A stretch of 24,233 nt of DNA, from positions 1-24,233 of IMG/VR virus record IMGVR_UViG_3300034101_000454; one strand, written 5' to 3'. This DNA is from a virus. The notes below the pieces were generated by a model. It searched no databases. It saw nothing but the letters and a program-made list of their open reading frames with translations, and was not told where the DNA came from. Below are positions 217-23,987 of the stretch, in pieces (within the stretch, counting starts at the first letter, position 1; each line of letters begins with the position of its first letter). The position numbers and the translations under genes are program-made.

Positions 217-1650
217 TCAGAACCTCGCGCTTGCAACCCACTGCATTGATGCAGTCGAGTTGGCACCTAGTGCCGTGCCGCTGTTAGAAAAGCTGGCAGA
301 TTTTATTCCGCTTGTTGATAAGAGAGTGCCGGAATTAGTTAGGCCGCCGTCAACCATTTGCCCTGATGTGCCAGTTTGCGGATTATAAACAGTGTAAACT
401 GGCACAATGCGCTTTTCGGCGTAAACAATTGGCACAATCGCAATATTCAACCCGCCTGATTGGCAAGGGCCGCGTGCTGCGCCGTCAAAAGTCGCTGTGC
501 CGGGAGCAGTTCCGTATGAATAGCTCTTTTCCCAATACCGCTGACACGCCCGCAAATCGGCATCCCATGCAGGCAATTCCCATGCTGGTGCTGCACCGAT
601 GTTCAGCGGGTCCACATACAAACCAACGTCGAATAGCTCGAACGTGGCGGATGCTGTTCCCATGAAGTTGGTCTGGCCGGATGTGGTCGCGATATTGGAT
701 CCCTGCCATGAGCCGGCAGTGCCTTGCCATGTCGTGCCGGCTGAGAGTGTAATTTGCAGGGTTAACCCAATGCCGGTATCGGTCAGCCATGTTCCAGACG
801 CATCGCCGGGAATGACAATCGTGCGAACGAGGTCTGTGTTGATTTCGCCGCCTGCAATTGTAATGGTTGTTACATAGGAGCGGTTGACTGCGCTGTTTCG
901 CAGAGACACGCCGAACGTGCCGGCAAGGCTGGACCGGACACCGAACCGGATAACAATTTGCCGCGCGGATGCCGTGCCGAACCGCGCATCGGCAATCATC
1001 TGGCCTTCAATTGGTTGTTGCAAGCTGTAAATATCGCCCGCCGCAATGGTGGCATCTGCCGCTTGTGCTGTGAGCCTCAATCGAAATGGTGAGCCGCCCG
1101 GTGTTGCGCTCGCGACTTGCTGCGCCCGCAATGTTCCGCCCGGTGTCGTGCTCAAAGACGCCTGCCACTGGTCCACGGTGTAAGCCGTGCCAGTCGTCAC
1201 ATCGACAAGCGTCGTGCCACGCTCTTGGCTGATCTGCATGGCGGGGTTGATGATGCGGTTGCGGTAGGTGTCGCCGAGATAGCGGGCGTCACCAAAGGAC
1301 CGGCTCACCGCGTGGTCAGCAACCGTGGCCGCTGCGACTGAAAACACCTGAGCCGATGAACCTGCAAGCGCCGCCTTTTCGGTGTCCAGTTCAGCAATAG
1401 CCGATTGGGTGTTCGTCGCCGCGATGTTGCCAGCCGGGGTGAATGGCGTGTTCGTCGCGCTGATGCCGAGGTTGGTCCGCGCATCCGCCGCATTGGCCGC
1501 ACCAGTGCCACCAGCAGACACGGGACGGGCTGCATTGGCATCCGTCACAAGATCGTCTATCGTGGTGTTATAAGCCGCGCTCTGGATGGTGGTTCCAGAG
1601 ACAACGCTGGGGCTGCCCTTGCTATATATACCGCCGCCGTTTCGAGGCAT
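217..1650 (-). CDS. tail fibre / tail appendage protein
   Basis: A 477-residue protein is expected at the distal end of the particle for host recognition. Its N-terminus (MPRNGGGIYS, then a VSGTTIQSAAYN segment) resembles the particle-attachment region of many podophage and prophage tail fibres. The motif VSAGGTGA near residues 44-51 and the segment NRIINPAMQISQERGTT near 131-147 also recur in fibre proteins of alphaproteobacterial phages. The rest is Thr/Ser/Gly-rich and beta-prone, as expected for a receptor-binding region. The start is placed at ATG 1650 because AAAGGA lies just upstream. An in-frame TTG at 1665 would overlap that site. The gene sits immediately after an intrinsic terminator, so expression probably depends on read-through or a local promoter. 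The receptor cannot be deduced. Confidence 0.85.
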   Translation of the reverse strand: MPRNGGGIYSKGSPSVVSGTTIQSAAYNTTIDDLVTDANAARPVSAGGTGAANAADARTNLGISATNTPFTPAGNIAATNTQSAIAELDTEKAALAGSSAQVFSVAAATVADHAVSRSFGDARYLGDTYRNRIINPAMQISQERGTTLVDVTTGTAYTVDQWQASLSTTPGGTLRAQQVASATPGGSPFRLRLTAQAADATIAAGDIYSLQQPIEGQMIADARFGTASARQIVIRFGVRSSLAGTFGVSLRNSAVNRSYVTTITIAGGEINTDLVRTIVIPGDASGTWLTDTGIGLTLQITLSAGTTWQGTAGSWQGSNIATTSGQTNFMGTASATFELFDVGLYVDPLNIGAAPAWELPAWDADLRACQRYWEKSYSYGTAPGTATFDGAARGPCQSGGLNIAIVPIVYAEKRIVPVYTVYNPQTGTSGQMVDGGLTNSGTLLSTSGIKSASFSNSGTALGANSTASMQWVASARF

Positions 1651-13351: not shown

Positions 13352-14517
13352 GCAGCCAACAACAGCACAAGGGCTGCCTCTTCGTTGCGACGCCGAACCC
13401 GACGCCTGATTGTCTCTGCCTGTGCAAGCACCAGGTCACGCAGTTCCGCCGCGTCCATGTCGCTGGATCTGAATTGGGCAATCGCATCTTGCAAGTCTGC
13501 AATAGCGGTCGGCGACACCAGCGATGGCAGCGCTATCGGGTCGAATTCCGCGACGATTGCAGCGGCTTTTTTGGTTCGCGTCTTGTCGGGCCTTGTGAGC
13601 CTGACGGCAGCGCGTTCCAGTTCCTTGATTTGCTTCGTGTAGAAGAACTTGCGAGACTGGCCAGACGTTCTGAACCCGGCATCATCACCGCGTCGGACTG
13701 TGATCGGTGCAGCGTTGTTAGCCACAACCTCGAACGTGAGCGACGTTGCGCCTTCGATGTATGTTTCACCGGACAGCAGCGCAGACGCGGCGAACGTCAG
13801 CGATGTCGAGCCTTCGATGTCTGCGACAGACGAGCCAGACCCGGTCAGGTCGCCCGATGTCGCGAATGTCAGTGACGATGCAGCGCTAACAAGCCCGCCG
13901 CCGAACGCATCCCCAGCCGGGGTGAATGTGAGCGACGATGCGCCGTCAATCTGTGCCGCCGTGGACGCCGTGGCGGTCGTGGTAAAGGTCAGCGATGTTG
14001 AGCCGACAATATCACCGCCCGAGCCGCTTCCGGTCAGGTCGCCAGCCGGGGTGAACGTCAGTGACGATGCCGCTTCGATCAGCCCGCCACCAAACGCCGT
14101 AGCGGCTGGCGTGAACGTCAGGCTAGACGCGCCGAGAAGCGGGCCATCCCCGATCAGGGACGCCGCTGGCGAGAAGGTTAGTGTTGACGCACCCAGAAGC
14201 GGGCCATCTCCCAGCAGCGTAGCCGCTGGCGAGAAGGTGATTGACGTTGCGCCTTCGATGTTAGCGCCTGCACCGCCAGACCCGGTAAGGTCTCCGGTCG
14301 TCGTGAACGTCAGGCTTGACGCGCCGTCAACCGCTGCGCCGCCTGTAACAGCACCGGCTAGCGAGAACGTCAGTGACGTTGAACCGGATATTGCACCGCC
14401 AGCCGCTAGGGCCTCAGTCTGCCAAGCGTCGGGCTGGAATGCGCCAGGTTGAAACGCGACCGTGATGCCGCCGCTTTGCTTGCCAAGGACGCCGGTTGCC
14501 AGCCAAAAGACAAGCAT
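13348..14517 (-). CDS. virion protein with eleven tandem ~20-residue repeats
   Basis: After an N-terminus with the phage-type motif VAFQPGAFQPDAWQ, residues about 41-266 form eleven repeats. Each is built on (G/A)(A/S)(S/T)SLTF(T/S)PA followed by a Gly-rich turn. SLTF-type cores begin near residues 48, 68, 92, 112, 132, 152, 175, 195, 215, 239 and 259, so the spacing is 20 with occasional 23-24 where a Gly/Ser insert occurs. Such regular Thr/Gly-rich repeats suggest a beta-solenoid or stacked-strand shaft. The C-terminal ~100 residues are helical and basic (FFYTKQIKELERAAVRL, then ETIRRRVRRRNEE). A surface fibre or decoration protein is likely. No strong ribosome binding site precedes ATG 14517. 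The exact function is unknown. Confidence 0.75.
   Translation of the reverse strand: MLVFWLATGVLGKQSGGITVAFQPGAFQPDAWQTEALAAGGAISGSTSLTFSLAGAVTGGAAVDGASSLTFTTTGDLTGSGGAGANIEGATSITFSPAATLLGDGPLLGASTLTFSPAASLIGDGPLLGASSLTFTPAATAFGGGLIEAASSLTFTPAGDLTGSGSGGDIVGSTSLTFTTTATASTAAQIDGASSLTFTPAGDAFGGGLVSAASSLTFATSGDLTGSGSSVADIEGSTSLTFAASALLSGETYIEGATSLTFEVVANNAAPITVRRGDDAGFRTSGQSRKFFYTKQIKELERAAVRLTRPDKTRTKKAAAIVAEFDPIALPSLVSPTAIADLQDAIAQFRSSDMDAAELRDLVLAQAETIRRRVRRRNEEAALVLLLAA
13720..14397. repeat. degenerate tandem repeat array of ~60-72 bp inside a CDS
   Basis: Eleven diverged copies of a roughly 60-bp unit, some with 9-12 extra bases, encode the SLTF repeats. On the plus strand they show as recurring gtgaacgtcag-like blocks. 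Several neighbouring copies are close in sequence (for example those with GPLLGAS), pointing to growth by unequal recombination or slippage. Confidence 0.8.
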
Positions 14518-22597: not shown

Positions 22598-22604
22598 GTC
22601 AGCC

Positions 22605-22709
22605 TCAATAGCCCTTCTTGGGCTTCATCGCTGGCTTGGCCTTTGGCTTCATGCACTTGCCAGCCTTGGCGCAGGCTTTGGGGTTGGGGCAACCGGGGCA
22701 GGGCTTCAT
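22605..22709 (-). CDS. 34-residue Cys-rich, Lys-rich mini-protein
   Basis: The gene begins with ATG 22709 and ends with TGA at 22605, seven bases before the next ATG. The peptide starts MKPCPGCPNPKACAKAGKC, giving four Cys with spacing C-x2-C-x5-C-x5-C that could hold one zinc ion. It continues with Lys/Pro repeats (KPKAKPAMKPKKGY). No strong ribosome binding site is visible, although GAAAGTG lies upstream. Small CPGC peptides of this kind occur in other phages as I recall them. Nucleic-acid binding is plausible from the charge and Cys pattern, but not shown. Confidence 0.6.
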   Translation of the reverse strand: MKPCPGCPNPKACAKAGKCMKPKAKPAMKPKKGY

Positions 22710-22763
22710 GGCTTGTCACTTTCGCTTGTGTGTGCTTGTGTCATCGCCCTTTGGAGGTGATGA

Positions 22764-22934
22764 ATGAACGCCGTTGATAAAGCCCTTGAACAGTTGCGCA
22801 CTGCACTGGCAGCCGAGATAGAAGCCGCCGAACGCCGTGGCGCTGCGAATGCTGCCGCTGAACTAATGGCACGAATGCAAGCCGCTATCGGTGTGGAGCC
22901 TGCTAGGAAGCGCGGGCGGAAACCGAAGGGCTGA
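22764..22934 (+). CDS. 56-residue helical protein with AT-hook-like basic tail (plus strand)
   Basis: The plus-strand ATG at 22764 is preceded by an excellent GGAGGTGAT. The protein starts MNAVDKALEQLRTALAAEIE, continues as an Ala/Glu/Arg-rich helix to about residue 42, and ends with the basic tail KRGRKPKG. The tail resembles an AT-hook core (RGRP-type) and the C-terminal ends of small nucleoid-binding proteins. The stop TGA is part of a 19-bp sequence repeated 258 bases downstream. It is divergent from the terminase operon and only 54 bases from it, so a DNA-binding or regulatory role on the shared spacer is possible. No family is assigned. Confidence 0.65.
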   Translation: MNAVDKALEQLRTALAAEIEAAERRGAANAAAELMARMQAAIGVEPARKRGRKPKG

Positions 22935-22946
22935 AACAATCAAGCC
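22928..22946. repeat. direct repeat copy 1 (19 bp)
   Basis: The sequence gggctgaaacaatcaagcc occurs here and again at 23186-23204, identical over 19 bases. This copy covers the stop codon of the plus-strand 56-residue gene. The ends (ggct / agcc) can pair to form a small stem. Confidence 0.85.
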
Positions 22947-23042
22947 ACGCATGGCGTGAACCGTGCGGGGCTGGAATAAGCTGCCGGTCTTTCCCGACTG
23001 TCAGGCCACCGGACCACCCCCGGTCTGCGACCCTTGCGGGCC

Positions 23043-23059
23043 TCTGGACTCGAACCAGA
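23043..23059 (-). other. tRNA T-arm-like hairpin 2
   Basis: On the minus strand the sequence reads TCTGG-TTCGAGT-CCAGA, a perfect 5-bp stem with the canonical seven-base T loop. It is followed by GGCCCGC. No matching 5' acceptor strand with an anticodon arm is found at normal tRNA distance, so this is a motif and not a called tRNA gene. Confidence 0.6.
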
Positions 23060-23082
23060 ATTCACCAAATCACGGCCAGCGT

Positions 23083-23099
23083 GCGGGAATCGAACCCGC
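23083..23099 (-). other. tRNA T-arm-like hairpin 1
   Basis: On the minus strand the sequence reads GCGGG-TTCGATT-CCCGC, again a perfect 5-bp stem with a canonical T loop. It lies 40 bases upstream of the second T-arm, too close for two complete tRNAs. The preceding bases do not give a normal D arm and anticodon arm. Confidence 0.6.
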
Positions 23100-23185
23100 C
23101 TGCCTCGTTGCCCCATCGGGCGAATAAGCTAGGCTTTCGCCTAGAGCCTGCCGCAAGCGACAGGTGGGTAATTTGTTGCCCTTGC

Positions 23186-23204
23186 GGGCTGAAACAATCA
23201 AGCC
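23186..23204. repeat. direct repeat copy 2 (19 bp)
   Basis: This is an identical copy of the 19 bases at 22928-22946. It adjoins the large nested hairpin at 23200-23236 and overlaps the CCCGCAAGGG hairpin at 23179-23188. Confidence 0.85.
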
Positions 23205-23236
23205 GGGCGTTGCCATCTAGGCAATCCACCCGGCTT
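23200..23236. other. large nested hairpin in the spacer
   Basis: Outer arms aagccggg (23200-23207) and cccggctt (23229-23236) pair perfectly over 8 bp. Inside, ttgcc (23210-23214) and ggcaa (23220-23224) form a 5-bp stem with loop atcta. An asymmetric internal loop separates the two. On the minus strand it is followed by GATTGTTTC, not by a T-run, so it is not a standard terminator. Confidence 0.7.
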
Positions 23237-23366
23237 GTGTTGCCCGTGGCGGTAGGACGCCGAACCGGGCTGTTGTCAAAACCCCGACTAAGGATTGCTG
23301 ACACGCTAAGGCACAAAACCGCACCCTGCATTAATGCCCTTATCCTTATTCGCGCTTTAACGCAAG

Positions 23367-23939
23367 TCACATGCCGAAGTATCTCACAAGGATGTTAGCA
23401 GCCTCGCGCGCTGTTCCCAGCTTGTGCGGATGTTGCGTTTCATCCCGTGCCAGCCCCTCGACAACGCGCACATATTCGACGCCCCTGCCCGCGTATTCCA
23501 GCAGGGCAGACCGAGCGCCGTTGTATTCCCTCATTCGCCTGAACACCTCATCATCGTCATACTCAAAGCCGATGCCACCGGAGCCGCTTACCATTTCACC
23601 CGAGATGCTTTTCGGGTGTTCGGTGCCGTAGCCCTGCGCAACGCGGTTAAGGTGCCGAACCGTCACGTAGCGCTTGATGGCCTCATACTGGACAGCCGAT
23701 AGCCCTTGGCTGTCATCACGGGCCTGCTTGGCTTGCATCCGCCACTGACCAAGCGGGCAGGTCCAGTGCTGGTCTGATGCGTTCTCGATTGTCGCGCCCC
23801 ACATCTTCACACGCTGGGCTATGACGGTGGATTTGATTTGCTCCACCGTCTCGCCTCTATCGCCCCTGTCAGCCTTGGCAATGCGGCCACCAGGATAGCG
23901 CTCGACATCTGTTTTCCGTTTCCTGCCAGCCTGAGCCAT
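23367..23939 (-). CDS. conserved basic phage protein upstream of the terminase region (190 aa)
   Basis: The N-terminus is basic and disordered (MAQAGRKRKTDVERYPGGRI) and followed by helices: TVIAQRVKMWG, QWRMQAKQARDD, LSAVQYEAIKRYVTVRHLNR. Later come an acidic stretch (FEYDDDEVFRRMREYNGARS) and a helical C-terminus ending ILVRYFGM. I recall proteins with this GRKRK...YPGGRI opening and QYEA helix near the terminase genes of alphaproteobacterial phages and prophages; no function is established. ATG 23939 is chosen because AAGGAAAG precedes it at good spacing; an in-frame ATG at 23984 lacks such a site. A DNA-binding or packaging-linked role is possible. Confidence 0.75.
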   Translation of the reverse strand: MAQAGRKRKTDVERYPGGRIAKADRGDRGETVEQIKSTVIAQRVKMWGATIENASDQHWTCPLGQWRMQAKQARDDSQGLSAVQYEAIKRYVTVRHLNRVAQGYGTEHPKSISGEMVSGSGGIGFEYDDDEVFRRMREYNGARSALLEYAGRGVEYVRVVEGLARDETQHPHKLGTAREAANILVRYFGM

Positions 23940-23987
23940 GATGTGACTTTCCTTGCCGTTGGTGATGACGATGACGCGGCGCATGAG

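Follow-up and report, generated by a model that had tools for sequence, protein, structure and literature searches.

What is encoded in a phage spacer that holds two transfer RNA (tRNA) T-arms and no complete tRNA? The question is raised by the window analysed here, the 24,233-base virus record IMGVR_UViG_3300034101_000454 from IMG/VR (positions 1 to 24,233), of which a 432-bp spacer at 22935-23366 is the subject. A reading of the sequence alone had noticed in this spacer two perfect T-arm hairpins only 40 bases apart and had proposed an undescribed structured or tRNA-like phage RNA. Both hairpins are indeed there, at 23083-23099 and 23043-23059 of the minus strand, their starts being 40 nucleotides (nt) apart, and the proposal has gained support, since a model built from other phages recognises the window, 17 of 19 base pairs show compensatory changes and no tRNA, transfer-messenger RNA (tmRNA) or Rfam model fits. 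There is very little doubt in our minds that the spacer contains a member of a conserved, phage-borne family of structured RNAs of about 130 nt, here called the double T-arm RNA; what this RNA does can be answered only tentatively.

Architecture of the double T-arm RNA

In the family T-arm 1 is followed by a junction in which a GG is invariant; T-arm 2 comes next, then one or two more hairpins and last a 3' hairpin of the type GCCGG-GAAAGA-CCGGC. A long-range stem, P0, formed by NRCC with GGYN, encloses T-arm 2 and the hairpins that follow it. The RNA lacks an acceptor stem and anticodon arm of its own, and no gene is its constant neighbour. In the window the parts are the following.

22980-23111, minus strand: core of the double T-arm RNA, matched by the covariance models R1 (103.8 bits) and R2 (95.9 bits)
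23083-23099, minus strand: P1, which is T-arm 1, GCGGG-TTCGATT-CCCGC, a perfect hairpin whose pairs covary over 69 members
between T-arm 1 and the 5' strand of P0, minus strand: CGCT, as read in the window sequence
23074-23077, minus strand: 5' strand of P0, GGCC (consensus NRCC), one side of the long-range stem supported by the permutation test and pair counts
23060-23073, minus strand: D-loop-like junction GTGATTTGGTGAAT (consensus GAG-nnn-GG), recognised by its conservation in the family
23043-23059, minus strand: P2, which is T-arm 2, TCTGG-TTCGAGT-CCAGA, a perfect hairpin of which 5/5 pairs covary over 69 members
23031-23040, minus strand: hairpin P3, CCC-GCAA-GGG, read from the sequence; variable across the family, often with a tetraloop
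23008-23024, minus strand: hairpin P4, ACCGG-GGGTGGT-CCGGT, with GG in its loop like most members
23004-23007, minus strand: 3' strand of P0, GGCC (consensus GGYN), supported by the permutation test and pair counts
22983-22998, minus strand: hairpin P5, GTCGG-GAAAGA-CCGGC, with TGACA just before it, supported by pair counts across members and scans for this hairpin type

T-arm 1, P0, T-arm 2 and P5 can all be formed in the window, with no non-standard pair in the R2 alignment and a single G-U pair, which is in P5.

Evidence for a conserved fold

Relatives were collected by scanning IMG/VR for two T-arm cores nearer to each other than those of any two tRNAs, which gave at least 120 stretches. 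A subset of the matches listed has, after T-arm 1, the sequence CGYT-NRCC-GAG, a GG and then T-arm 2. A second scan, with T-arm 1 plus a CGYT-NRCC-GAG-type sequence as the pattern, has at least as many matches as were listed, and the size of the family is thus to be read as a lower bound. When the sequences were read by eye, NRCC appeared to pair with GGYN some 60–100 bases downstream, and a 3' hairpin GCCGG-GAAAGA-CCGGC was suggested as well.

RNAalifold, applied to 22 aligned members including that of the window, proposed P1, P0, P2 and P5 unaided, with double changes in 14 of the 21 pairs. The later tests weigh more, because the 22 members had been chosen partly by P0 and the P5 loop. Among elements not chosen for P0, the complement of the element's own NRCC is present in the expected region in 60 of 64 non-redundant cases; when the four-base words were shuffled among the elements 10,000 times, the mean was 33.8 and the maximum 46. 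In an alignment of 69 members, the window left out, 96.0% of the cells are paired, and in 17/19 pairs both sides have changed with the pairing retained. Such compensatory changes, which the sequence-only reading had named as a test of the RNA, are abundant. The covariation score of these 69 members is 0.546, compared with 0.130 ± 0.009 after shuffling and at most 0.103 when the partners are slid, it being noted that the alignment had been fitted to the first model, which favours that model, and that the margin is large.

R2, built from the same 69 relatives without the window, recognises the window at 23111-22980 with an E-value of 1.8e-26. A scan with the junction only, in which neither T-arm was required, yielded 12 new loci, of which 8 are members with scores of 84-119 bits. 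All 8 have T-arm 1 and 7 have the canonical loop of T-arm 2, the second loop of the remaining one deviating; the other four of the 12 loci are coding look-alikes. In the paired columns there are 39 G-U as compared with 9 A-C combinations, and this excess indicates an RNA read from the strand given, which is the minus strand in the window.

The unpaired parts are conserved as well. The junction GG is found in all 69 members and the preceding GAG in 68, and the loop of T-arm 2, for which there had been no selection, reads TTCRANY in most of them. P4 is present in 52 of the 69 members, and 47 of these 52 loops contain GG, where 32.2 would be expected from the loop composition (maximum 40 in 2,000 draws).

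Comparison with known RNAs

The view that the spacer holds no complete tRNA is borne out: ARAGORN finds 0 genes in the window, neither tRNA nor tmRNA, and there is no match to the tRNA family RF00005 in 22700-23450 at E ≤ 5. The tmRNA model of Rfam matches only a T-arm of 17 nt, with 17 of the 47 bits required. None of the 4,227 families of Rfam 15 matches the window at its gathering threshold, and at E ≤ 5 this tmRNA fragment is joined just by a weak plastid match. In 12 + 10 further loci scanned, no Rfam 15 family covers the elements, tRNA matches being found only alongside them. A search of the literature for T-arm, tRNA-like and phage-RNA topics brought up no description of such an element among open-licence papers; one in a subscription journal is possible. 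The region of the window shows no direct similarity to named phages at E 1e-5, there being just fragments that contain the element itself.

With tRNA (RF00005) and tmRNA (RF00023) the phage RNA shares canonical T-arms and a GG-bearing loop that resembles a D-loop; it differs from them by its two T-arms, the lack of an acceptor or anticodon arm and the long-range stem round T-arm 2. YrlA, a bacterial Y RNA, is a noncoding RNA with a tRNA-like domain, and such a domain is what the two have in common; however, the elements of 10 loci scanned gave no match to the YrlA model (RF02553) at E ≤ 1. One locus, L310, does have a YrlA match of 35.7 bits, which is away from the element. The same locus has at 1137-1220 (minus) a match of 50.6 bits to the tmRNA model that is 84 nt long only, beside a tRNA and the weak YrlA match. 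GOLLD and ROOL are structured RNAs reported from phages and prophages, but they are far longer than the phage element and have no Rfam match in the window or in the loci scanned.

The tRNA-like structures of the turnip yellow mosaic virus (TYMV) type are found at the 3' ends of plant RNA viruses and are aminoacylated. Such viral RNA imitates the tRNA elbow (PMC4810234), whereas the phage element belongs to a DNA phage and has two T-arms and no acceptor end. Two T-loops within one RNA are likewise found in T-box Stem I, RNase P and the L1 stalk, where they interdigitate; the phage element differs in having two complete tRNA T-arms with 5-bp stems. The put RNA of HK022 is also a phage RNA element built of hairpins. 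It is ~70 nt long, consists of two stem-loops located 3' of early promoters (PMC9378689), has no T-arms and differs from the phage element in position and architecture.

Other tandem T-arms in phage contigs (L244, L158, L149, L242, L232 and L251) lie outside the double T-arm family. In these, one acceptor-like stem, long in several of them, encloses both T-arms, which has the look of another tRNA-like architecture, distinct from the first.

Occurrence and neighbouring genes

Members are carried by dozens of phages of unlike types. Among named phages they were confirmed in the Pseudomonas phages Touem01 (74.3 bits; L444 2993-3123), Ebordelon (52.3 bits; L443 3993-4137) and D6 (47.4 bits), in all of which the element is unannotated. 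In 84,980 bacterial and archaeal species there are 54 pattern matches, of which about seven score well and most are not members. The few bacterial loci are in genomes as distant as those of Chitinophaga, Variovorax and Hyphomicrobium, and some of the well-scoring ones have phage-type genes (portal, terminase or integrase).

On viral contigs, where genes were called by a simple longest-open-reading-frame rule, the neighbours include genes for a virion RNA polymerase, a methyltransferase, a ParB-like protein, terminase, endolysin, an HNH endonuclease and many unknowns, and no neighbour family recurs in more than 3 of ~80 members. With neighbours so diverse, the element can be taken neither for a packaging site nor for the riboswitch of a single gene; the latter was rejected as no downstream gene is common to the members. 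The nearest neighbours are codirectional in 55/78 cases upstream and 55/83 downstream. ARAGORN predicts a tRNA within 1 kb of 21/70 members. In several (e.g., L297, L218, L275, L269 and L237) this tRNA ends just 5' of T-arm 1; in others the predicted tRNA overlaps T-arm 1 and may be the element misread.

Hairpins of the 3' type, TGACAGCCGGGAAAGACCGGCA, also occur alone or in arrays in other phages, namely at L431 2448-3020, L442 2501, L432 3000, L433 3002 and L445 2500 and in L364. In several cases they follow repressor-type genes or occupy gaps ahead of genes for the terminase small subunit (TerS). Among loci selected by TerS 0/50 and among those selected by the terminase large subunit (TerL) 2/79 have this hairpin type. 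Odd tRNA-like sequences with acceptor-like stems and partial arms were seen in unannotated gaps at L430 2930-3560 (Gordonia phage Fryberger) and L432 2740-2890 (Medea1), and the phage contig L218 has at 14235-14299 (minus) a match to the type-P5 twister ribozyme (RF02684, 40.9 bits).

The spacer of the window as a set of cassettes

Most genes of the window are on the minus strand, and its proteins include, by profile, a TerS of the Sf6 type (PF20901) and a portal (PF23899) and major capsid protein (PF17236) of the SU10 type. The spacer had been placed next to the terminase operon. It is in fact flanked by two convergent genes, one for a protein of 56 amino acids (aa) (plus, 22764-22934) and one for a protein of 205 aa (minus, 23367-23984), and TerS starts ~560 bp past it. 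The 56-aa gene is judged to be real because its differences from the relatives are mostly synonymous in the alignment. Between it and the TerS region there is a small conserved open reading frame rich in Cys and Lys (MKPCPGCPNPKACAKAGKCMKPKAK..., ~22604-22709, minus). Open reading frames of 58, 54, 102 and 105 aa across the spacer were not accepted as coding; the relatives have indels and loss of whole cassettes there. The spacer as a whole is more stably folded than its shuffles on both strands (z = −3.64 and −3.40), a result which alone is silent on strand or importance and to which the comparative evidence is superior.

Nor is the whole spacer one element, as had been assumed: only 22980-23111 and the hairpins just 5' of it make up the T-arm RNA. 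The remaining features are these.

23110-23121, minus strand: hairpin GCCC-GATG-GGGC immediately 5' of T-arm 1, where many relatives have a short tetraloop hairpin
23129-23164, minus strand: 5' hairpins of the cassette, CCTGTCG-CTTG-CGGCAGG and CTAGGC-GAAA-GCCTAG, the latter at 23129-23144, identified by alignment
22934-22958, minus strand: weak terminator-like hairpin CACGCCATGCGTG with GCTTGATTGTTT after it, closing the cassette on its 3' side
23192-23310, minus strand: module A, a second cassette apart from the T-arm RNA, ending in a hairpin (23192-23237) and the same GGCTTGATTGTTTCAGCCC tail

A scan for terminator-like hairpins was not above chance (2 found, 1.7 expected). The smaller hairpins of the sequence-only reading are all present, both those of the type CCCGCAAGGG (23031-23040, which is P3, and 23179-23188) and the 6-bp stem closed by GAAA; its nested hairpin likewise exists, with 9-bp outer arms at 23199-23207 and 23229-23237, but belongs to the separate second cassette. 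A 9-base direct repeat, AGCTTATTC, is found on both sides of the core RNA (23122-23130 and 22974-22982), which may be chance.

The alignment of nine loci with a gene for a near relative of the 205-aa protein shows that their spacers differ by whole blocks. In L053 and L056, with the same flanking genes, the spacer is almost wholly absent and with it the T-arm element. L057 and L059 have module A without the T-arm block and L054 and L055 only the T-arm block; the window has both, module A being upstream. In L052 the block is a different one, although its 5' hairpins are those of the T-arm block too, and there the GAAA hairpin is kept by paired changes (CTAGGC-GAAA-GCCTAG to CTAGCC-GAAA-GGCTAG). 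The element in the window is thus an accessory cassette. Its core RNA is identical with that of L054/L055 in 132 of 132 positions, the flanking coding sequences being ~92% identical, which fits either selection on the RNA or recent exchange.

What the RNA may do

The elbow of tRNA, in which the D-loop residues G18 and G19 are docked into the T-loop, is a recognition site for many enzymes and for some RNAs, and there are viral RNAs that hijack tRNA-binding factors by copying it (PMC4810234). The reading that we favour, although it may well prove wrong, is that the RNA of the window is a free-standing mimic of the tRNA elbow that acts in trans. It would be transcribed, probably together with the 205-aa gene upstream, whose message would end in it. 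The GG-bearing loops of the junction and of P4 would dock into the two T-loops in the manner of a D-loop, giving a compact elbow-like body, and this could occupy or recruit a host tRNA-binding factor, candidates being RNase P, an enzyme that modifies T-loops or a defence protein directed at tRNA. Action in trans is proposed because the neighbours are diverse, the phage types unlike and the cassette present or absent in close relatives.

Several points weigh against such a mimic. The D-loop-like docking of the GG loops is suggested by sequence only; the junction of the window reads GTG where the consensus has GAG; and hairpins of the P5 type occur also alone in other phages, so that part of the function may be unrelated to the T-arms. 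Moreover, most of the collection was gathered with a search pattern that included T-arm 1, and P0 and the GAAAGA loop were among the criteria by which the first model's seeds had been picked, so that these features are over-represented in the RNAalifold and 69-member tests, a bias that the P0 permutation test and the junction-only scan avoid.

The RNA could also act in cis, as an element of the 3' untranslated region that protects or processes the 3' end of the upstream transcript, be it as a signal for RNase P or RNase Z or by blocking exonucleases, its T-arms being recognised by the tRNA-processing enzymes of the host. With this it agrees that in the window the RNA comes after the stop codon of a gene of the same direction and is itself followed by a terminator-like hairpin and a convergent gene, that most of the nearest neighbours are codirectional and that in some members a tRNA gene abuts T-arm 1. 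However, about one third of the neighbours are on the opposite strand and no upstream gene is common to the members; RNase P or RNase Z would have no acceptor stem to measure, and an exonuclease stop needs less than a 130-nt fold with a conserved long-range stem, so that we regard action in cis as possible but rather unlikely. That the two T-loops interdigitate in the way known from the L1 stalk, RNase P and T-box Stem I, with a flat face turned to the elbows of tRNAs, be these the host's or the phage's, appears improbable to us. Two nearby T-loops do define the interdigitated motif, of which further examples have been predicted (PMC4810234), and tRNA genes are predicted within 1 kb of some members, with calls that in part overlap the element; yet many loci have no tRNA gene, and both loops keep the tRNA-type TTCRANY with 5-bp T-stems together with conserved GG loops able to fill them, for which reason docking as between D- and T-loop suits better than interdigitation.

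An antitermination element of the put type known from HK022, which while being synthesised would target RNA polymerase, is brought to mind by the 3' hairpin type standing alone near repressor genes in mEp390, Medea1, BUCT708 and pAEv1818. We think it very unlikely, considering the length, two stem-loops and early-promoter position of the put RNAs given above, the absence of a P5-type hairpin from HK022 26000-33000 and the place of the window's copy at the end of a transcription unit, after a gene. Hardly any credit can be given to a packaging site or packaging RNA, which as an inverted-repeat site had been the main alternative of the sequence-only reading: terminase genes are within ~1 kb in the window, and TerL profiles are among the nearest neighbours in a few members, but most members adjoin unrelated genes such as those listed above, L053 and L056 have the same flanking genes and no element, and the G-U excess indicates an RNA read from a single strand. 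Finally, two decayed tRNAs of a cluster, reduced to their T-arms, would account for both arms being perfect tRNA T-arms and for the tRNA genes beside some members; such a remnant is practically excluded by the compensatory changes in every helix, by a junction that does not vary and by an arrangement that unrelated phages share, and it was rejected on the covariation.

Implications

Should the RNA be a free-standing elbow mimic, it might go further and represent a new class of phage RNA with two tRNA-elbow contacts per molecule, which would lure host or immune proteins that recognise tRNA, or serve them as a decoy, and would have passed among unrelated DNA phages as an exchangeable cassette, a view for which we would claim no great likelihood. 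That tRNAs serve phages against tRNA-cleaving defences is known (PMC10264068; PMC11555353), and a stand-alone elbow mimic would, if true, be a different way to play on the tRNA-defence machinery. Two canonical T-arms without an acceptor or anticodon arm are found in no known family among those tested. The covariance model offers a direct route to testing, and the family is an example of the conserved RNAs that the usually unannotated intergenic gaps of phages harbour.
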